From: Alphaproteobacteria bacterium
Lineage (GTDB): Bacteria; Pseudomonadota; Alphaproteobacteria; UBA828
Direction: 5' to 3'
DNA: 64,000 nt
NCBI GenBank assembly: GCA_022826665.1
Contig: JAJDUK010000093.1
Span: forward strand, 1 to 64,000
Part shown: positions 565 to 9,958 of the stretch, one piece after another
How positions within the stretch are numbered: position 1 is the stretch's first letter
Layout of the letters: the number at the start of each line of letters is the position of its first letter
The notes under the pieces: model-generated
Databases searched by the model: none
Seen by the model: only the letters and a program-made list of their open reading frames with translations
What the model was told of the DNA's origin: nothing
Made by a program: the position numbers and the translations under genes

Positions 565-1434
565 TCACCGGGCGCCCGCGGGCGGTGCCTCCGTCGTTGT
601 CGGGGGCGTCGCCACCATGGCGGTGAGCCGGCCCGAATTCTCCCGCAAGCGAAGCCACTGCTGGTAGTAGAGGGGAAGCGCCATCACCGCCTCCATGAAC
701 TGGAAGACGTACATGACGATGGCGAAGACCTTGCCGTACTCGACGATGTTGTCCGCCGCCGCCCCGATGGAGAAGACAAGCAGGGCGATCATGAAGAGCC
801 AGACGATCCCGAAATTGGCGGCTTCGAGGTCTGAGAGCTTGATGTTCCAGCGCATCATGGCGCGGATGTGGCTGCCGACGCGCGCGGCGTCGCCGCTTTC
901 GACGGCATCCACCTGCTGCTCGTACTGGTCGTTGTAGCTGCGGTTGAAGCGCGTGGTCAGCCGTCCGGTCAGCACGTAGACCGCCACCGTCACGCAGATG
1001 ACGACGACGCAGCCGACGAAGATGGGCAGGTCCAGGGTCGAGAGGATGAGAATCACGCCAGCGAGCTGAAGGACGTTGGTAATGAGCTCGGGGAGGGAAT
1101 TCTCGAGAAACTCGACGATCTCGCGGAGCATCCCGAGGCGCGCGGTCTTGGTCGACGTGCTGCTCCCGGATTGACCGGCCACCAGCTCCTCGCCGAGCTT
1201 GGCGTAGATGCGGGCGTAAGCCCGGCTGTCCACGATCCGCCGGAGGATGGCGATCGCCATGGCGGCGATGCCGAGAATGGCGAGCTCGTAGAGGCCGTGC
1301 CACGAGTCAGCGAGGATGCCGTCGATGGCCCGGCCGATGACCAGCGGAAACAGGATCCAGCCTGCGGACTCCAGCACGATCAGCAGGAGGGTCAGCGAAA
1401 TGCGGGCGGCGAAGCGCTTCAGGAGCATGCTCAA
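565..1434 (-). CDS. ABC transporter six-transmembrane-domain protein lacking an ATPase domain
   Basis: This 289-residue protein reads as the membrane half of an ABC exporter. Hydrophobic helices lie near residues 8-35, 45-65, 115-150 and 205-235, and the sequence ends without Walker A, signature or Walker B motifs. Stand-alone six-helix ABC proteins of this length are a known family whose ATPase partner, if any, is unidentified; none is encoded next to it here. The longest start is TTG (1434). An ATG two codons in (1428) is equally possible and changes almost nothing. Its 3' end abuts the C-rich repeat array. Substrate unknown. Confidence 0.75.
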   Translation of the reverse strand: MSMLLKRFAARISLTLLLIVLESAGWILFPLVIGRAIDGILADSWHGLYELAILGIAAMAIAILRRIVDSRAYARIYAKLGEELVAGQSGSSTSTKTARLGMLREIVEFLENSLPELITNVLQLAGVILILSTLDLPIFVGCVVVICVTVAVYVLTGRLTTRFNRSYNDQYEQQVDAVESGDAARVGSHIRAMMRWNIKLSDLEAANFGIVWLFMIALLVFSIGAAADNIVEYGKVFAIVMYVFQFMEAVMALPLYYQQWLRLRENSGRLTAMVATPPTTTEAPPAGAR

Positions 1435-1492: not shown

Positions 1493-3436
1493 CTACTCGA
1501 ATGACGAGAGGCGCGCGAGAAGCTGCGCGATCTCGGCATCGCTCACTTGCGCCGGGCGGTACCATGAGCGCTCGGACGCGCTCACGATCTTCTGCCGGTC
1601 CGCCGGCTCATCGGGAACGAAGCCGATCCAGAGCTCGCTCATCTCGTCCGTGGTCTCCCAGCCCCAGGTCACGGTCTCAGGCTCCAGCGCCGGGTTCTGG
1701 GGATTGTCCGCCGTGTTGTCGTAGCGCACCCAGGCGTCGATGCGGCTGCCCGCCGGCAGGTGGACCGGCTCCCGGTAGGCGAAGGTGTTCTGCCAGCGGA
1801 AGTCCCAGTCGGCGATGCGGATGAGGGGGCGCTCGCTGCCGTCGGGCAGGATGGCGATGGCGATGAACTCGCGGCCGAGAAAGTGCATGTGCGGGGTCAC
1901 GTCGGTCAGCGCCATGCCGGAGGGGACGTCCATGGAGAAGCGTCGCCAGTAGCTCTCCTCGCCCGGCGGAATGCGCAGGTCCTGGGTGCCGATGACCACG
2001 CCATCGACGTAGCGCTCGACCGGCTCCCTGGCGAAATGGAAGCCCACCTCGCTCCGGTCGGTCGTGGCCTTGCCGTTCAGGTGATAATGCACCTCCAGCA
2101 CCAGGTCCCCGCCCCTGGGCAGCCACATGCCGAGCCCCTTGTCGAGGACGTAGGGCTGCACCCCCGGCGCCCAGCCGCCGATGCCGTAAGCGTTGTAGTC
2201 GAGGAAGGCCCCGGTGCCGAAGACCGAGAAGCCCGGCTCCGCGTCCTTCGCATCCGCCGCCCTGGCGCGGCCGCTGTAGTCCATCAGGTAGTTGGCGTGG
2301 TGCACCACCTTGGCATCGCCGGGGCTGAATTCGAGCGCTGCCACCACCTTGTCCTCGGTGAAGCCGGTGGGGATGACGAAGTAGCGGTAGATGTCGTCGC
2401 CGTCCGCCGGCACCTGGAAGGGCTCGGTCATGCTGAGCACCAGGTCCGGCTCGCCCAGTTGCCACTTCGAGCCGGAGCGGATGGAGGCCGGCATGGCATC
2501 GCCCGCATCGCCCAGGCGGGCGCCGTTCTCCGACCACGACGCGAGCAGCGCGATCTGACGGTCGCTGAGGCGGCGCGCGTCGCGGAACGCGCCGAAGCCG
2601 GGCACCGCGCGCCACGGCGGCATCAGGCGCTCGCCGGCCATGAAGGAGACCATGCGGTGCCAGCGCTTCGCGTTGTCGTAGCCTTCGAGGGAGAAGGGGG
2701 CGATGCCGCCCTGCCGGTGGCATTCGACGCAGTTCACTTCCAGCAGCGGGGCGATGTGGCGGTTGTAGGTGACTTCGTCGAGGCCTGTGCCGTTGGCGCC
2801 GGCCCGGTTCCAGTCGTGGTGAAAGCACCCGACCGCCTCGGTGGCGTAGGGTTCCGGCTGGCCGCCGTCGGCCATCGCCTCGATGACGGTGCGCAGGTCG
2901 TGCGAGGAGATTCGCGTGCGCAGCCTGCCGACGGCGGCGAAGCGATCGTCGATGCGGCCCTGGTAGACGACCCGGTCGGCGGTGGAAATCACGAAGGCCT
3001 CCGACATGACGCGGGGGCCGAGACGGAGCGCCAGATCGCCGGTGCTGTCCAGGATGACCGGGAACGCGATGCCGAAATCGTCCACGAAATCCGTGCTCTG
3101 GCGCCAGGTGATGTTAGGGTTCGACAGGACGCCGTAGAGCGCCACGCCATTCGCGCGCGCTTCGGCGTGAAGCGCGTTGAGCGTCGGCACGTAGCGCGTG
3201 GCGACGGGGCAGGCGGTATCGAGAAAGACCAGGACCGCCGGCTGCACCGCGCCTGCGGAGACGCCGATGCGGTGGTGGTGGCCTTTCACGTCGGTCACGC
3301 GGACCCCGATCAGATCGACCGCGTCGCCCGGTCCCGGCGAGGCGGCGGCGGCGATCGACGGCGCAGCGGCCAACAGGCAGACGAGAACGAGAAGGGCGCG
3401 AAGTCGCTTCGCGATGGCGTTCATCATGGTCGTCAT
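1493..3436 (-). CDS. Secreted redoxin / cytochrome c / ascorbate-type copper monooxygenase fusion
   Basis: This 647-residue protein begins with a signal peptide (about 1-31), then a thioredoxin-fold redoxin domain (about 35-190, single TACP cysteine at 76), a c-type haem motif CVECH (236-240), and a C-terminal domain resembling peptidylglycine/dopamine monooxygenases. All expected copper ligands can be read: HH 379-380, H450 in EVHYH, H516 and H518 in PHMHF, and Met599 in TDEM. A periplasmic copper oxygenase with a built-in electron-transfer domain is inferred; the substrate is unknown. The ATG at 3436 overlaps the TetR stop codon (ATGA), so the two are translationally coupled. ATGs at 3427 and 3424 are alternatives. 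Confidence 0.75.
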   Translation of the reverse strand: MTTMMNAIAKRLRALLVLVCLLAAAPSIAAAASPGPGDAVDLIGVRVTDVKGHHHRIGVSAGAVQPAVLVFLDTACPVATRYVPTLNALHAEARANGVALYGVLSNPNITWRQSTDFVDDFGIAFPVILDSTGDLALRLGPRVMSEAFVISTADRVVYQGRIDDRFAAVGRLRTRISSHDLRTVIEAMADGGQPEPYATEAVGCFHHDWNRAGANGTGLDEVTYNRHIAPLLEVNCVECHRQGGIAPFSLEGYDNAKRWHRMVSFMAGERLMPPWRAVPGFGAFRDARRLSDRQIALLASWSENGARLGDAGDAMPASIRSGSKWQLGEPDLVLSMTEPFQVPADGDDIYRYFVIPTGFTEDKVVAALEFSPGDAKVVHHANYLMDYSGRARAADAKDAEPGFSVFGTGAFLDYNAYGIGGWAPGVQPYVLDKGLGMWLPRGGDLVLEVHYHLNGKATTDRSEVGFHFAREPVERYVDGVVIGTQDLRIPPGEESYWRRFSMDVPSGMALTDVTPHMHFLGREFIAIAILPDGSERPLIRIADWDFRWQNTFAYREPVHLPAGSRIDAWVRYDNTADNPQNPALEPETVTWGWETTDEMSELWIGFVPDEPADRQKIVSASERSWYRPAQVSDAEIAQLLARLSSFE

Positions 3437-3984
3437 GAGCCCAATCCTTCGAGCAGTGTGCGCAGTGCCAGGTCGGCCGCGTGCGCGGGCGCGAGATTTC
3501 CCGCCGCGACTTCCGACCAGGCGAGCCAGACCTGTGCATCGATGTTGACGACCGCCCAGCTGCGCGGCACGTCGGCGGCGATCACGCCTTCCGCCTTGAG
3601 GTCGTCCACCAGGTGCCCGAGCCAGTCGAGCTCCTCGGCGTACCGCTTGCGCACGGCTTCGTCGTCGACGGCCTCGGACACCAGAAAGTGATAGCGATCG
3701 CCGAGCGGGATCACCGCTTCCAGCATGCGCGACAGACGATCCCGTGCGGTGTGCGCGTCCTGGAGCGCCTCGGCGGTCGCGGTGTCGATCTGGTCCATGC
3801 ACTGCCGGGAGGCGGCGGCGATGAGGTCGCCGCGCGAGGGGAAATGGCGGTGCAGGCTCGCCCGGCCGACGCCGGCGCGGCTCGCGATCTCGGAGAGAGA
3901 CGCGCCCGAATTGCGCGCGAGCGTGTCGATGGCCGCATCGAGTACGGCCTGCCGTGTCGAGGGTCTGAGCGGTCGTTCGGGCAT
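3433..3984 (-). CDS. TetR-family transcriptional regulator
   Basis: This 183-residue protein has the TetR layout: an N-terminal helix-turn-helix at about residues 12-55 (ASLSEIASRAGVGRASLHRHF) followed by a helical ligand-binding and dimerisation domain. Its stop codon overlaps the start of the redoxin/copper-monooxygenase gene by four bases, so it is very likely co-transcribed with that gene and controls it. A dyad ACAATATTGT sits 12 bases upstream of the ATG, where autorepression would be expected. There is no Shine-Dalgarno sequence. The frame stays open far upstream, but that extension is antisense to the aminotransferase and was not used. Confidence 0.9.
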   Translation of the reverse strand: MPERPLRPSTRQAVLDAAIDTLARNSGASLSEIASRAGVGRASLHRHFPSRGDLIAAASRQCMDQIDTATAEALQDAHTARDRLSRMLEAVIPLGDRYHFLVSEAVDDEAVRKRYAEELDWLGHLVDDLKAEGVIAADVPRSWAVVNIDAQVWLAWSEVAAGNLAPAHAADLALRTLLEGLGS

Positions 3985-3991
3985 GGCGTCG

Positions 3992-4019
3992 TGATACAAT
4001 ATTGTCTCACATGAGGCAA
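3992..4019 (-). promoter_or_regulatory. Candidate TetR-gene promoter with overlapping operator dyad
   Basis: On the minus strand TTGCCT (4019-4014) and GTATCA (3997-3992) are separated by 16 bases and resemble -35 and -10 boxes. The perfect palindrome ACAATATTGT (3996-4005) lies between and over them, a typical repressor position. The -10 box is only about seven bases from the ATG, which would give a leaderless or nearly leaderless message. The dyad also faces the divergent aminotransferase gene. Confidence 0.45.
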
Positions 4020-4110: not shown

Positions 4111-5448
4111 ATGCCTCTCGACGACATCAACTATCCCGAGAACCCCAACGATCTCGAAGCCTTCTGGATGCCGTTCACGGCGAACAAGGGTTACAAGCAG
4201 AAGCCGTGCCTGATGACGCGCGCCAAGGGCATGCACTACTACACGCCGGGCGGCCGCGAGATCCTGGACGGCACCGCCGGTCTCTGGTGCTGCAACGCGG
4301 GCCACGGCCACGAGAAGATCGTGGCGGCGATCAAGGCGCAGGCCGAGCGCATGGACTTCGCGCCGACCTTCCAGCTCGGCCACCCGGCCGCCTTCGAGTT
4401 CGCCAACCGGCTGGTGGACCTCGCGCCCGGCGATCTCGACCACGTGTTCTTCACAAACTCGGGCTCGGAGTCGGCGGACACCGCGCTCAAGATCGCGCTC
4501 GGCTATCACTACGTGCGCGGCAAAGGCTCGAAGACCCGGCTGATCGGGCGCGAGCGCGGCTACCACGGCACCAACTTCGGCGGTACCTCCGTCGGCGGCA
4601 TCGTCAAGAACCGCATGTTCTACGGCAGCCTGCTCTCGGGCGTGGATCACATCCGCCACACCCACGACCTGGAGCACCAGGCCTTCAGCCGCGGCGAGCC
4701 CGAGTGGGGCGCGCACCTGGCGGACGACCTGGAGCGGCTGGCGGCGCTGCACGATCCTTCCACCATCGCGGCGGTGATCGTGGAGCCGGTGGCGGGCTCC
4801 ACCGGCGTGCTGGTGCCGCCCAGGGGCTACCTGCGCCGGCTCCGCGAAATCTGCGACAAGCACGACATCCTGCTGATCTTCGACGAGGTGATTACCGGGT
4901 TCGGCCGCCTCGGCGCGAGCTTCGCGGCGGACTACTTCGACGTGCAGCCGGACATCCTGACCACCGCCAAGGGGCTCACCAACGCGACCGTGCCCATGGG
5001 CGCGGTGTTCTGCCGGAGCAAGATCTACGACGCCTTCATCGAGAACACCAAGCAGGGCATCGAGCTCTTCCACGGCTACACCTATTCCGGCCACCCGCTG
5101 GCGTCGGCAGCGGGGATCGCGACGCTCGACGTCTACCGCGAGGAGAGGCTGTTCGAGCGCGCCGCCGAGCTCGCGCCCTACTGGGAGGACGCGCTCTGGT
5201 CGCTCAAGGGCGGGCACCACGTGATCGACCTGCGCAACCTCGGCATCGTCGCCGGCATCGAGCTGGAACCCCGGCCTGGCGCGCCCACTGCGCGCGCCGT
5301 CGAGACCTTTCACAAGTGCTTCGACGAAGGCGTGCTGATCCGGGTCACGGCCGACACCATCGCGCTCTCGCCGCCGCTGATCGTCGAGAAGAACCAGATC
5401 GACCGGATCTTCGACACCATCGGCGGCGTGCTGAAGACGGTGGACTGA
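4111..5448 (+). CDS. Class III omega-amino acid:pyruvate-type aminotransferase
   Basis: A 445-residue, full-length PLP-dependent class III aminotransferase. Visible features are the cofactor phosphate-binding segment [16 protein letters not shown], the acidic [11 protein letters not shown] motif that contacts the pyridine nitrogen, and the Schiff-base lysine in TTAKGLTN. The N-terminal segment [16 protein letters not shown] is typical of beta-alanine (omega-amino acid):pyruvate transaminases, so it probably moves an omega or beta amino group to pyruvate. ATG 4111 was chosen because family members begin just before this motif; upstream in-frame codons at 4060 lack conserved sequence. It heads a plus-strand group with the next two genes. 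Confidence 0.88.
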
Positions 5449-5479
5449 GCGCGCGGGCGGACGACGGGGGAGCGGCAGG

Positions 5480-6679
5480 ATGATGCGGGCCTATATCGTC
5501 GGCACCCTCGATACCAAGGGGGATGAGCTGCTCTATCTCCGTGACCTGCTCGCGGCGGATGGCGTGCAGGCCTGCGTCGTGGATGTGGGCACCGGGAGCG
5601 CAGAGCGTCCCGCCGGCGTGGACGTGAGCGCGGCGGAGGTCGCCGCCCACCATCCCGACGGCGCCGATGCGGTGCTGAGCCTCGAAGATCGCGGCCAGGC
5701 GGTCGCCGCCATGGGCGAGGCGCTGGCGCGCTTCCTGCCCACGCGCGATGACATCGGCGGGGTGATCGGGGCAGGGGGCTCCGGCAACACCGCGCTGGTT
5801 TCCATCGGGATGCAGGCGCTCCCCATCGGGGTGCCGCGGGTGCTGGTCTCCACCGTCGCGTCGGGCAACGTCGCGCCCTACGTTGGGCCCAACGACATCA
5901 CCATGATGTACTCGGTGGTGGACATCGCCGGGCTCAACCGCATCTCGCGGGTGGTGCTCGCCAACGCGGCGCACGCGCTCGCCGGCATGATGCGGGGCAC
6001 GGCGCCGGCGGCCGAGGACAAGCCCGCCATCGGGCTCACCATGTTCGGCGTCACCACGCCCTGCGTGGATCAAGTCCGCGCCGCGCTCGAGGCGCGCTAC
6101 GACTGCTTGGTCTTCCACGCCACCGGGACCGGCGGGCGCTCGATGGAGAAGCTGGTCGATTCAGGTCTGGTGCTGGGCTGCATCGACAGCACCACGACGG
6201 AGGTGTGCGATCACCTGATGGGCGGCGTCTTCAGCGCGGGCGGGGACCGGCTCGGCGCCTTCGCGCGGACCGGCCTGCCCTACGTGGGCTCGTGCGGGGC
6301 GCTCGACATGGTGAACTTCGGCGCGCGTGAGACCGTGCCCGCGCAGTACGAAAGCCGCACCTTCCACATCCACAATCCCAACGTGACGCTCATGCGCACG
6401 ACCGCCGACGAGAACCGCGCCATGGGCGAATGGATTGGCGCCAGGCTCAACGCCTGCGCGGGGCCGGTGCGGTTCCTGATCCCCGAGCAGGGGGTCTCGC
6501 TGATCGACGCGCCGGGGATGCCGTTCCACGATCCGGACGCCGACGCGGCGCTCTTCGAGGCGCTGGAGCGGACGGTCGAGCAAAGCGACACAAGGCGCCT
6601 GATCCGCCTGCCGTTCCACATCAACGACGACGATTTCGCCCAGGCTCTGGTCGAGTGCTGGAACGAGATCGCCGCCTGA
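5480..6679 (+). CDS. UPF0261 / Tm-1-like ATP-binding domain protein
   Basis: This 399-residue protein starts with the family hallmark [13 protein letters not shown] and continues with [12 protein letters not shown] and [14 protein letters not shown], both conserved glycine-rich segments of the Tm-1-like family. The tomato antiviral protein Tm-1 has this domain at its N terminus; the bacterial biochemical role is not established. It lies 32 bases after the aminotransferase and 22 bases before its usual partner, the TIM-barrel protein. GC-rich ribosome-binding sequence GGGGGAGCGGCAGG precedes the ATG. Confidence 0.88.
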
Positions 6680-6701
6680 GCCGGACACAGGGAGGCCGAC
6701 A

Positions 6702-7532
6702 GTGCCGGGCATGGATCGCCGAACGCTGCTCGAGAGATTTCACGGCATGATCGCCAGCCGCAAGCCGATCATCGGCGGCGGCGCCGGCACCGGGCTCTCG
6801 GCCAAGTGCGAGGAGGCAGGCGGCATCGACCTCATCGTGATCTACAACTCGGGCCGCTACCGCATGGCGGGCCGGGGCTCGCTCGCCGGCCTGCTCGCCT
6901 ACGGCAACGCCAACGAGATCGTGAAGGAGATGGCGCACGAGGTGATCCCCGTGGTCAGCCGCACGCCGGTGCTGGCCGGGGTCAACGGCACCGATCCCTT
7001 CATGGTGTTCGACCGCTTCCTGGACGAGCTCAAGGCGCTGGGTTTTTCCGGCGTGCAGAACTTCCCCACCGTGGGACTCATCGACGGCGTCTTCCGCGCC
7101 AATCTGGAAGAGACCGGCATGGGCTTCGGCCTGGAGGTCGACATGATCCGCGCGGCCCACGAGGCGGACCTGCTCACCACGCCCTATGTCTTCTCGGAGG
7201 GCGATGCGGTCGCCATGACAGACGCCGGCGCCGACATCATCGTCTGCCACATGGGGCTCACCACCAGCGGCACCATCGGCGCGCAGACGGCGAAGTCGCT
7301 GGAAGAGTGCGTGACGTTGATCGATGCGTGGGCGCTCGCGGCCAAGGCCGTGCGCAAGGACGTCATCGTGCTCTGCCACGGCGGCCCCATCGCCTCGCCC
7401 GAGGACGCGACGTTCGTGCTGCAGAACGCGCAGCATGTGCACGGTTTCTACGGTGCCAGCAGCATGGAGCGCCTGCCCACCGAGGTCGCCATGACCGCGC
7501 AGACCAAGGCCTTCAAGGCGATCAGCTTCTGA
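6702..7532 (+). CDS. Phosphoenolpyruvate-hydrolase-family TIM-barrel protein (UPF0261 partner)
   Basis: This 276-residue protein has alternating strand-helix periodicity and the family segments [22 protein letters not shown] and [13 protein letters not shown], placing it in the TIM-barrel group annotated as phosphoenolpyruvate hydrolase-like. It corresponds to the C-terminal half of plant Tm-1 and fungal homologues, in which the UPF0261 and barrel halves are fused. GTG 6702 was chosen because GGAGG (6691-6695) lies six bases upstream; ATG 6711 is the alternative. It ends 12 bases before the convergent livF stop. The true reaction is unknown. Confidence 0.82.
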
Positions 7533-7544
7533 CGGGGTGACGCC

Positions 7545-8234
7545 TCAAACTCCTAGGTATCTGTCCGTCAGTGCGGGCGTGAGATCGGTGCTGGCGCCGG
7601 ACCAGCAGGTCGCCCCTTTCTCCAGGATGACGCAGCGCTCGGCCACGGCCGTGAGCGCCGCGAGCGACTTGTCGACGACGAGGATGGAGAGACCGGCCTC
7701 CTTGAGGCGGGCGATCACCGACCAGATTTCGCGGCGGATGAGCGGGCCGAGCCCTTCCGTCGCCTCGTCCAGGATCAAGAGGCGGGGGTTGGTCATCAGT
7801 GCACGGCCGATGGCGAGCATCTGCTGCTCGCCGCCGGAGAGCGTGTTGGCCTTCTGATTGCGGCGCTCCGCGAGCTGGGGGAAGAGCGCGATCACCCGCT
7901 CTTCGTTCCAGTGGCCGGGGCGGGCGGCGGCGGTTAGGTTCTCGCGCACCGTCAGGGTCGGGAAGCAGCGCCGGCCCTCCGGTACCAGGCCGAGGCCGAG
8001 CCAGGCCGCCCTGTGCGAGGGGAGCCGCGCGAGATCGCGGCCGGCGAAGGCGATGCGGCCTTCGCGGTGCGGCATCATGCGGCAGATCGTCCTGATGGTG
8101 GTCGTCTTGCCCATGCCGTTGCGTCCCATCAGCGCCACGACCTCGCCTTCAGCGACGGCGAGATCGACGCCGAAGAGCGCCTGCGAGGTGCCGTAGAAGG
8201 CGGTGACGCCCGCGACCTCAAGCAGCGCCGTCAT
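7545..8234 (-). CDS. livF: Branched-chain amino-acid-type ABC transporter ATP-binding protein LivF
   Basis: At 229 residues this is a compact LivF-type ATPase with Walker A GRNGMGKTTT, the signature LSGGEQQM and Walker B LLILDEATEGL. It energises import through the LivHM channel together with LivG. The ATG at 8234 lies inside the end of livG (17-base overlap), implying coupled translation; the longer open frame upstream has no family similarity. The transport genes face an amidase and hydantoinase/oxoprolinase set, so the real substrate may be an amide or amino-acid derivative rather than leucine. Confidence 0.92.
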   Translation of the reverse strand: MTALLEVAGVTAFYGTSQALFGVDLAVAEGEVVALMGRNGMGKTTTIRTICRMMPHREGRIAFAGRDLARLPSHRAAWLGLGLVPEGRRCFPTLTVRENLTAAARPGHWNEERVIALFPQLAERRNQKANTLSGGEQQMLAIGRALMTNPRLLILDEATEGLGPLIRREIWSVIARLKEAGLSILVVDKSLAALTAVAERCVILEKGATCWSGASTDLTPALTDRYLGV

Positions 8235-8982
8235 GTCCCTCGTCCCCGAGGTAGGCGCCGCGGACCTCCTCGTTGGCGCGTATCTCCTCCGGCGTGCCGC
8301 TCGCGATGATGCGGCCGTAGACGATGACGGAGATGCGGTCGGCGAGCGCGAACACCGCATCCATGTCGTGCTCGACCAGCAGGATCGGAGCCTCCGCCCG
8401 CAGGTCATCGAGAATTTCGATCAGCTTTGCCGTGTTTTCCGGCCCCATGCCCGCCATGGGCTCGTCCAGCAGGAACGCCTTGGGCTTGAGCGCGAGCGCG
8501 ATGGCGATCTCCAGCGCCCTTCGCTCGCCGTGCGACATGTCGCCTGCGCGAACGTGGGCTCTGTCGTCCAGCAGGAGGCGTTCGAGGTGTGCCATCGCCT
8601 GCGTCATCAGTGGCTTGTCCTTGAGCGCCGGCCTGAGGAAGCGGAAGGTCTTCCGCTCCACCGATTGGACCGCCAGCATGACGTTCTGGAGCCCCGAGAA
8701 CTCCGGCGCGACGGAGGATACCTGGAACGTGCGCGCCAGCCCCAGTTGGGCGCGCGCCACCATGTCCAGGCGGTCGATGTCGCGGCCGGCGAAGCGGATC
8801 GAGCCGCTGTCCTGTCTGATCTCGCCCGCGATCTGCTTGATGACGGTGGACTTGCCGGCGCCGTTCGGCCCGATCAGCGCATGAATCTCGCCGGGCACGA
8901 GGTCGAGCGTCACCGCGTCGCTCGCGACCACCGCGCCGAAGCGCTTCGACAGCTTCTCGGTCTGGAGGATCGGCTCAGGCAT
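8218..8982 (-). CDS. livG: Branched-chain amino-acid-type ABC transporter ATP-binding protein LivG
   Basis: This 254-residue ATPase shows Walker A GPNGAGKSTV, the LivG-type signature MSHGERRALEIA and Walker B FLLDEPMAGM, followed by EHDMDAVF with the switch histidine. It pairs with LivF. Its start overlaps the end of livM by eight bases and its end overlaps livF by 17, the tight spacing usual in liv operons. Confidence 0.93.
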   Translation of the reverse strand: MPEPILQTEKLSKRFGAVVASDAVTLDLVPGEIHALIGPNGAGKSTVIKQIAGEIRQDSGSIRFAGRDIDRLDMVARAQLGLARTFQVSSVAPEFSGLQNVMLAVQSVERKTFRFLRPALKDKPLMTQAMAHLERLLLDDRAHVRAGDMSHGERRALEIAIALALKPKAFLLDEPMAGMGPENTAKLIEILDDLRAEAPILLVEHDMDAVFALADRISVIVYGRIIASGTPEEIRANEEVRGAYLGDEGHDGAA

Positions 8983-9958
8983 GGCGGGGTTGGCCTGCGA
9001 GGATGCCGATGACGCCGCCGCGGGCGAACAGCACCAGCGCCACCAGCAGCGCGCCGAGCAGCAGGAGCCAATGCTCGCTGACGTCGCCCAGCGTGTTCTC
9101 CAGCACGATGTAGAGCGCGGCGCCGGCGGTGGGGCCGAAGAGCCGTCTCGTGCCGCCCAGGATCACGAACACCATGATCTCGCCCGAGGTGTGCCAGGAC
9201 AGCATTGACGGGCTGACGAAACGGTTGAGGTCGGCGTAGAGCGCACCGGCGAGCCCTGCCATCATGCCCGAGATCACGAAGGCGGTGAGCTTCACGCGGA
9301 AGGGACTGATGCCGACGGTGGCGAGCCGCTGCGCGTTCTGTCGCGCTCCGTTGAGCGCGAGCCCGAAGCGCGATTGCGAGAGCAGGAAGGAAAGGCCGAT
9401 CGCAAGGATGAGCAGCACGTAGCAGATGGCGAAGAAGTGAAGCGGATTCAGCGTGTTGAGACCGGGGAACTCGTTCCTGATGTAGATCGAGAGCCCGTCC
9501 TCGCCGCCGTAGGCCGGCCACGAGATGGCGAAGTAGTAGACCATCTGGGCGAAGGCCAGCGTGATCATGATGAAGAAGACGCCGGTGGTGCGCAGGGAGA
9601 GCGCGCCGATCACCAGCGCCGCAACACCGCTGACGACGATGGCGACGGGCCAGATGATGAGCATCTGCGTCGTGCCTTCGACCAGCAGCGGCGCGGTGAA
9701 GAGCGGCTCGTAGTTGAGCGCATGGCTCGCGAGGATGCCGGCCACGTAACCGCCCAGGCCGAAGAACGCCGCGTGCCCGAGCGAGACCATGCCGCCGTAG
9801 CCGAGCGCGATGTTGAGGCCGGTGCCGGCAAGCCCGAGGATCGCCACCTTGGTCGCGAGCGTGATGACGAAAGGCTCGTCGAAGGCGTTGCCGAGCAGCG
9901 GCGCGGCAAGCAGGCCCGCCGCGATCAGGAGACTGATGGCCGCCTCGCGGGTCATCAT
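8975..9958 (-). CDS. livM: Branched-chain amino-acid-type ABC transporter permease LivM
   Basis: A 327-residue inner-membrane permease with about ten hydrophobic helices and the conserved LivM region NIALGYGGMVSLGHAAFFGL near residues 48-67. Its start codon overlaps the livH stop in TGATG. It forms the transmembrane channel with LivH. Length and layout match the family. Confidence 0.92.
   Translation of the reverse strand: MMTREAAISLLIAAGLLAAPLLGNAFDEPFVITLATKVAILGLAGTGLNIALGYGGMVSLGHAAFFGLGGYVAGILASHALNYEPLFTAPLLVEGTTQMLIIWPVAIVVSGVAALVIGALSLRTTGVFFIMITLAFAQMVYYFAISWPAYGGEDGLSIYIRNEFPGLNTLNPLHFFAICYVLLILAIGLSFLLSQSRFGLALNGARQNAQRLATVGISPFRVKLTAFVISGMMAGLAGALYADLNRFVSPSMLSWHTSGEIMVFVILGGTRRLFGPTAGAALYIVLENTLGDVSEHWLLLLGALLVALVLFARGGVIGILAGQPRHA

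Follow-up and report, generated by a model that had tools for sequence, protein, structure and literature searches.

The window analysed here is a stretch of 64,000 nucleotides from an alphaproteobacterial genome assembly (GCA_022826665.1, contig JAJDUK010000093.1). At positions 1493-3984, i.e., from the stop codon of a putative copper oxygenase (1493) to the start codon of a TetR-family regulator (3984), it contains two genes on the minus strand. The larger gene encodes a fusion protein in which a redoxin, a c-type haem domain and a copper domain resembling the monooxygenases PHM and DBH follow each other in one chain. The following features were recognized at this locus.

3992-4009, plus-strand sequence: predicted TetR operator TGATACAATATTGTCTCA, palindromic, 7 bp upstream of the ATG of the TetR gene.
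3433-3984, minus strand: TetR-family regulator of 183 amino acids (Pfam TetR_N, 35.9 bits versus a cut-off of 24).
1493-3436, minus strand: fusion of 647 amino acids with redoxin, cytochrome c and PHM-like copper oxygenase parts.
3341-3436, minus strand: predicted Sec-type signal peptide, residues ~1-32, recognized by eye from a positive N-end, a hydrophobic core and the sequence AAAAS.
2822-3325, minus strand: redoxin domain of the AhpC/TSA type, residues ~38-205, with C76-P77-V78-A79 and C204 and without CxxC.
2513-2815, minus strand: c-type haem domain, residues ~208-308, with C236-V-E-C239-H240 and M272 (in MPPW) as the likely axial ligand.
1607-2479, minus strand: PHM/DBH-like two-subdomain copper domain, residues ~320-610, with H379, H380 and H450 (CuH) and H516, H518 and M599 (CuM).
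565-1434, minus strand: stand-alone ABC_membrane_3 (PF13748) membrane domain without ATPase (148.9 bits), 58 bp after the oxygenase gene.

The stop codon of the TetR gene and the start codon of the oxygenase gene overlap by four bases (ATGA). The oxygenase starts at the ATG at 3436, within the TetR stop, and not at the GTG at 3802 of the mechanically called open reading frame. Residues of the fusion protein are counted from ATG 3436, and on this count the number given to Met599 in an initial annotation of the locus is correct. The description of the sequence in that annotation was borne out to the residue, with the single correction that the redoxin lacks a CxxC motif. It had also described the protein as exported, with which the predicted signal peptide agrees. 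Cysteines are present at positions 20, 76, 204, 236 and 239 only, so the copper domain is Cys-free.

Structure prediction, proposed in the initial annotation as a check, yielded a fold of the C-terminal half that matches PHM. When an AlphaFold2 model of the copper domain (pLDDT 80.9, pTM 0.81) was compared with known structures by VIA-align, PHM and DBH were matched with Z scores of 21.0 and 20.5, respectively, and the next fold, of the PNGase F type, followed at 8.7. A Foldseek search with a model of the whole chain (pLDDT 70.1, pTM 0.50) ranked PHM at the top (E 1.9e-13). Profiles built from relatives replaced the Pfam family PF03712 (Cu2_monoox_C) for searching, and a profile made from 12 rows of the copper domain matched the PHM structures with E 2.6e-7 and DBH with E 1.3e-5. 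In the profile alignment, HH379-380, H450, H516-x-H518 and M599 are located opposite the PHM motifs HH, VHY, HTH and DEM, and thus correspond to H107, H108, H172, H242, H244 and M314 of PHM. A study on PHM names the three CuH histidines and M314 as the CuM site, describes a mutant in which H242 and H244 are copper ligands, and reports that PHM is inactive once any of the CuH histidines is lost (PMC6123673). By its predicted fold and its aligned ligand set, the copper domain of the window protein appears to belong to the PHM/DBH dicopper monooxygenase superfamily.

PHM and DBH, best known from animals, need ascorbate and catalyze demanding C-H hydroxylations. With PHM (1PHM, 1OPM, 3MIC), the window protein shares the two-subdomain fold, the order of the ligands and an equivalent of Q272, at ~18-20% identity in structural alignments. 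It is unlike PHM in having a copper domain free of Cys, in being fused to a haem c and a redoxin and in being bacterial and, as predicted, exported. DBH (4ZEL), which is similar in fold and profile match as described above, carries a DOMON domain at its N-terminus and relies on ascorbate, whereas the window protein has the haem c and the redoxin in front of its copper domain.

Relatives were found at 109 loci, which were reduced to 89 non-redundant rows. Those in which the domain covers at least 250 aligned residues, 81 in number, were used for the ligand counts, and the other eight are fragments or distant copies, including L040 and pieces in L033 and L041 without ligand residues. The six ligands, reported as intact in the initial annotation, are all kept in every one of the 81 rows, which span at least four phyla, although the sample is biased to well-conserved members because a profile of this very domain served to collect it. 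Conservation in at least 95% of these rows is limited to 22 copper-domain positions, ten of which are invariant, the six ligands included; Q549, which aligns with Q272 of PHM, is kept in 79 of the rows. These counts bear on an alternative explanation, i.e., that the protein is a redox carrier, a copper-binding protein or a sensor built on the PHM fold, without oxygenase activity. Such a role would be consistent with the lack of a substrate or product gene conserved beside the two genes, and TetR control would fit a stress protein as well. However, since both copper sites, including the Met of CuM, are invariant, and Q549 nearly so, a pure carrier is unlikely to need both sites so strictly, and this explanation is considered improbable. 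Apart from these rows, L040 and L033 (genome G098) contain distant copper-domain copies with R, E and S at ligand positions, which are possibly non-catalytic paralogues.

The CxxCH haem motif noted earlier is indeed present (C236xxC239H240). A haem domain was matched in 78 rows, 77 of which span the site, whilst the last one ends at a contig edge; the motif and Met272 are retained in all 77 complete sites. In Pfam, the haem domain of the window protein is weak, with 15.7 bits for CBB3 versus a cut-off of 27. With an attachment motif and a likely axial Met, the domain has the features expected of a c-type cytochrome and is predicted to be one.

The initial annotation had assigned a thioredoxin-fold domain to the protein. 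The fold assignment stands, as the redoxin domain matches AhpC-TSA in Pfam (38.1 bits versus a cut-off of 26) and contains the CP nucleophile (C76-P77), but the CxxC site of thioredoxin/TlpA dithiol reductases is not present in the window protein, which reads CPVA and has a distant Cys204. Of the 13 redoxins examined from the clade of the window protein, none has a CPxC motif, which occurs in six of the 31 fused redoxins of the family. C76-P77 is retained in the fused redoxins, and C204 is kept in nearly all of them. Because of the single CP cysteine, the mostly conserved C204 and the rarity of CPxC, the domain looks more like an atypical peroxiredoxin than like a dithiol donor. The thioredoxin-like proteins 2CVB, 3U5R and 2YWI are closest to it in sequence (2CVB, E 1.5e-17) and fold and in a C-terminal GC motif; they are stand-alone proteins, unlike the fused redoxin, and in 2CVB an extra Cys precedes the CP motif, at the position of Asp73 in the window protein.

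The redoxin is fused to the copper/haem chain in 31 of the 89 rows. In ten further clear rows, a separate gene for a full-length redoxin domain is located directly upstream on the same strand. Originally, 14 rows carried the latter label, four of which were set aside: in the tandem arrays L054b and L108 the redoxin is that of a neighbor, L053 has no more than 37 residues of it, in a different frame, and in L056 the redoxin is downstream. Since the redoxin is either fused or directly upstream in these rows, it appears, from gene arrangement, to belong to the oxygenase system, and the fusion apparently unites parts that are elsewhere encoded within one operon. The haem domain is a likelier entry point for electrons than the redoxin, which has a single nucleophilic Cys (CPVA) and no CxxC.

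The regulator is associated with a conserved palindrome. The 18-bp sequence TGAGACA-N4-TGTCTCA is found upstream of the TetR gene in all 12 loci with a TetR of the window type, with zero to three mismatches in 14 positions: none in L010 and L035, one in the window and in L001, L002, L005 and L006, two in L003, L004, L007 and L044, and three in L009. L044 has a perfect palindrome of its own, TGATACA-N4-TGTATCA. When the upstream regions of ten loci, i.e., all except L035 and L044, were Markov-shuffled, the mean best match had 5.6 to 6.0 mismatches; the observed value was reached by none of 200 shuffles in nine of the ten loci and by 1% of them in L009. The degenerate form TGAKACA-N4-TGTMTCA has its sole site without mismatches in the genome of the window at 3992-4009, and the acidobacterial, Kiloniellaceae and planctomycete genomes likewise contain one exact match each, at the cassette. 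By eye, the right half of the operator in the window, in the orientation of the TetR gene (TGTATCA), would overlap a -10 box. The conserved palindrome is predicted to be the operator at the promoter of the TetR gene itself. Several observations weigh against this assignment. The motif was derived from the same loci, and only L035 and L044 are independent, having been tested once it was fixed; L009, L003, L004 and L007 depart from the consensus; no exact match to the degenerate form was found in the genomes G006 (L004), G007 (L003) and G095 (L006); the single exact match in G096 is located away from its cassette; and in the genome of the window, sites with at most two mismatches are hardly more common than those of a control (five versus four). 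Nevertheless, the dedicated TetR coupling claimed earlier is supported by the overlapping genes, the conserved operator and its single perfect copy in the genome.

In a tree of the 81 domains, the window protein is located within a clade of 14 rows (SH-aLRT 100). This clade consists of seven alphaproteobacterial rows of the window's kind, two metagenome-assembled genomes (MAGs) labelled Gammaproteobacteria, one Gemmatimonadota MAG, a second alphaproteobacterium (L079), a Kiloniellaceae MAG (L011), an acidobacterium (L010) and a planctomycete (L044). Directly upstream, 11 of these rows encode a TetR that belongs to the family of the window regulator (36-90% identity). In the Kiloniellaceae, TetR and redoxin end the contig L035 and the remainder of the protein begins the contig L011, which suggests a twelfth case. 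In L079 (3-443; corresponding to ~5500-5950 of L111), the three-domain gene is located beside a divergently oriented TetR gene of a different type; the regulator looks as though it had been exchanged. No match to the window-type TetR was found at the loci of the remaining 67 rows, a weak negative as most of these cover only ~1.5 kb of flank. Since TetR and operator recur at loci that include those of acidobacterial and planctomycete genomes, TetR and the three-domain protein seemingly behave as a mobile cassette of two genes that travel together. Spread by plasmids found no support, the one match being a weak one to a Nonomuraea record of 11.85 Mb.

Taken together, these data lead us to read the locus, with moderate confidence, as a two-gene repressor/enzyme cassette for a repressor-controlled, periplasmic, haem-reduced copper hydroxylase. 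TetR would bind the 18-bp palindrome at the promoter of its own gene, keeping the operon off until a small-molecule inducer frees it, upon which TetR and the enzyme would be made from the coupled reading frames; inducible expression is thus deduced from the presence of a TetR and its predicted operator. The enzyme would be exported, haem c would be attached at C236/C239-H240 with M272 as the likely sixth ligand, and two coppers would be bound, one by H379, H380 and H450 (CuH) and one by H516, H518 and M599 (CuM). Electrons from the periplasmic cytochrome pool would enter at the haem domain and pass via CuH to CuM, where O2 would be activated and a C-H bond of an organic substrate hydroxylated as in PHM and DBH, with haem c replacing free ascorbate. 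The redoxin, with C76 and possibly C204 as its partner, most likely serves to handle peroxide or to maintain the metal site in its reduced state. The self-contained electron donor proposed in the initial annotation is more readily identified with the haem domain than with the redoxin, given the lack of CxxC in the latter, and electrons must still come from outside; with this amendment, its account of an electron donor in an inducible oxidation system is a reasonable hypothesis, supported in part. A functional analogy is offered by the pairs of cellobiose dehydrogenase and LPMO, in which a haem domain passes electrons to a copper oxygenase, but these differ in having haem b, another copper fold and separate chains.

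Other observations weigh against the proposed function. No activity is known for any family member. The window protein scores 13.2 bits with PF03712, below the curated threshold of 23, and its copper domain is therefore regarded as a divergent relative outside that Pfam family; a PF03712 search of its genome also gave no match, which is little informative, as none was found in 14 control genomes either. Much of the haem region and the loop with C204 have a pLDDT below 50 in the whole-chain model, which is of modest quality overall, so that the distance from haem to copper cannot be read from it. The locus L008, one of the 14 of the clade, contains no TetR. No redoxin was seen in 44 of the 89 rows, mostly with ~1.5 kb of flank covered, and it may therefore be dispensable for the chemistry. 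Finally, the positions of R240, N316 and Y318 of PHM, its peptidylglycine substrate-binding residues, read T514, E601 and W603 in the alignment with the window protein. This last point also bears on the idea of a bacterial PAM-like peptidylglycine-amidating enzyme, or a dopamine-hydroxylase-like one, with the substrate of its animal counterpart. Fold and ligands are the same as in PHM and DBH, but the chain has no lyase (PAL) domain in Pfam and none is named among the neighbors. Peptide amidation was therefore dropped, and an enzyme with such an animal substrate is very improbable.

According to the PHM study, each copper receives one reducing equivalent from ascorbate, the coppers are 11 Å apart, and H2O2 can bypass O2 and reductant (PMC6123673). 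The latter property makes a peroxide-handling redoxin sensible, and it also keeps alive the alternative that peroxide drives the system, either because the copper domain is a peroxygenase fed by H2O2 or because the whole chain removes peroxide via redoxin and haem c. The AhpC/TSA-type redoxin with its single nucleophilic Cys, which roughly half of the rows have either in the chain or next to it, would suit such a role. However, haem and copper sites stay in the rows where no redoxin was seen, and a haem domain with a Met ligand looks like an electron carrier rather than a peroxidase. A peroxide-driven system thus seems unlikely, though deserving consideration, and a haem-reduced hydroxylase remains the preferred reading.

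The neighboring genes do not name the substrate. A divergent class III aminotransferase gene, UPF0261 and PEP_hydrolase genes and, by eye, genes for a branched-chain amino-acid-type ABC transporter are located at 4111-9958 of the window. The operator is ~100 bp before the aminotransferase gene, and TetR might affect both sides. The aminotransferase gene adjoins the cassette in L001-L005, accompanied by UPF0261 except in L005 and by PEP-hydrolase in L002-L004, but L006, L007, L009 and L010 showed no sign of the three; because this set is not kept across loci, a fixed metabolic context was rejected. The PF13748 gene is complete beside the oxygenase gene in the window and in L003, is reduced to a 41-residue relic after the oxygenase gene in L001, has a distant homologue in L011 and was not found in L002. 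With this patchy distribution, it is an optional, possibly third gene of the operon and not a conserved component. Upstream of the planctomycete cassette in L110 (9782-13136), genes for PvcA-like, TauD-like and FAD hydroxylase proteins may form a biosynthetic cluster of the isonitrile type.

The domain profile was matched in 42 of 119 sampled genomes of Planctomycetota and in 27 of 149 of Acidobacteriota, some of which contain up to ~20 matching stretches, and in two of 289 of Alphaproteobacteria, including that of the window. When the whole protein was used to search a sample of 95 relatives, seven of the eight genomes of its own genus, itself included, were positive. Copies that are 74-77% identical to the window protein were found in MAGs labelled Gammaproteobacteria or Bryobacterales (L006, L007 and L013, the last being a fragment) and represent either recent transfer or mis-binned contigs. 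In agreement with the initial annotation, according to which bacterial members have no well-established substrate, the open-licence literature yielded no characterized bacterial family member or substrate.

New in the present analysis are the invariance of the six ligands across phyla, the form with a separate redoxin gene and the conserved TetR operator, which makes the cassette a seemingly mobile and testable unit. We tentatively suggest that the family is a large, so far uncharacterized bacterial branch of PHM/DBH enzymes that would draw its electrons from a c-type haem within the chain rather than from ascorbate and have peroxide controlled by a fused or adjacent redoxin, and that one branch of it is a TetR-switched two-gene cassette moving between phyla. 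If true, the built-in haem reductant would be another way of powering C-H hydroxylation of the PHM/DBH type. The single chain would make the electron path testable, and repressor and operator would offer a handle for finding the substrate.
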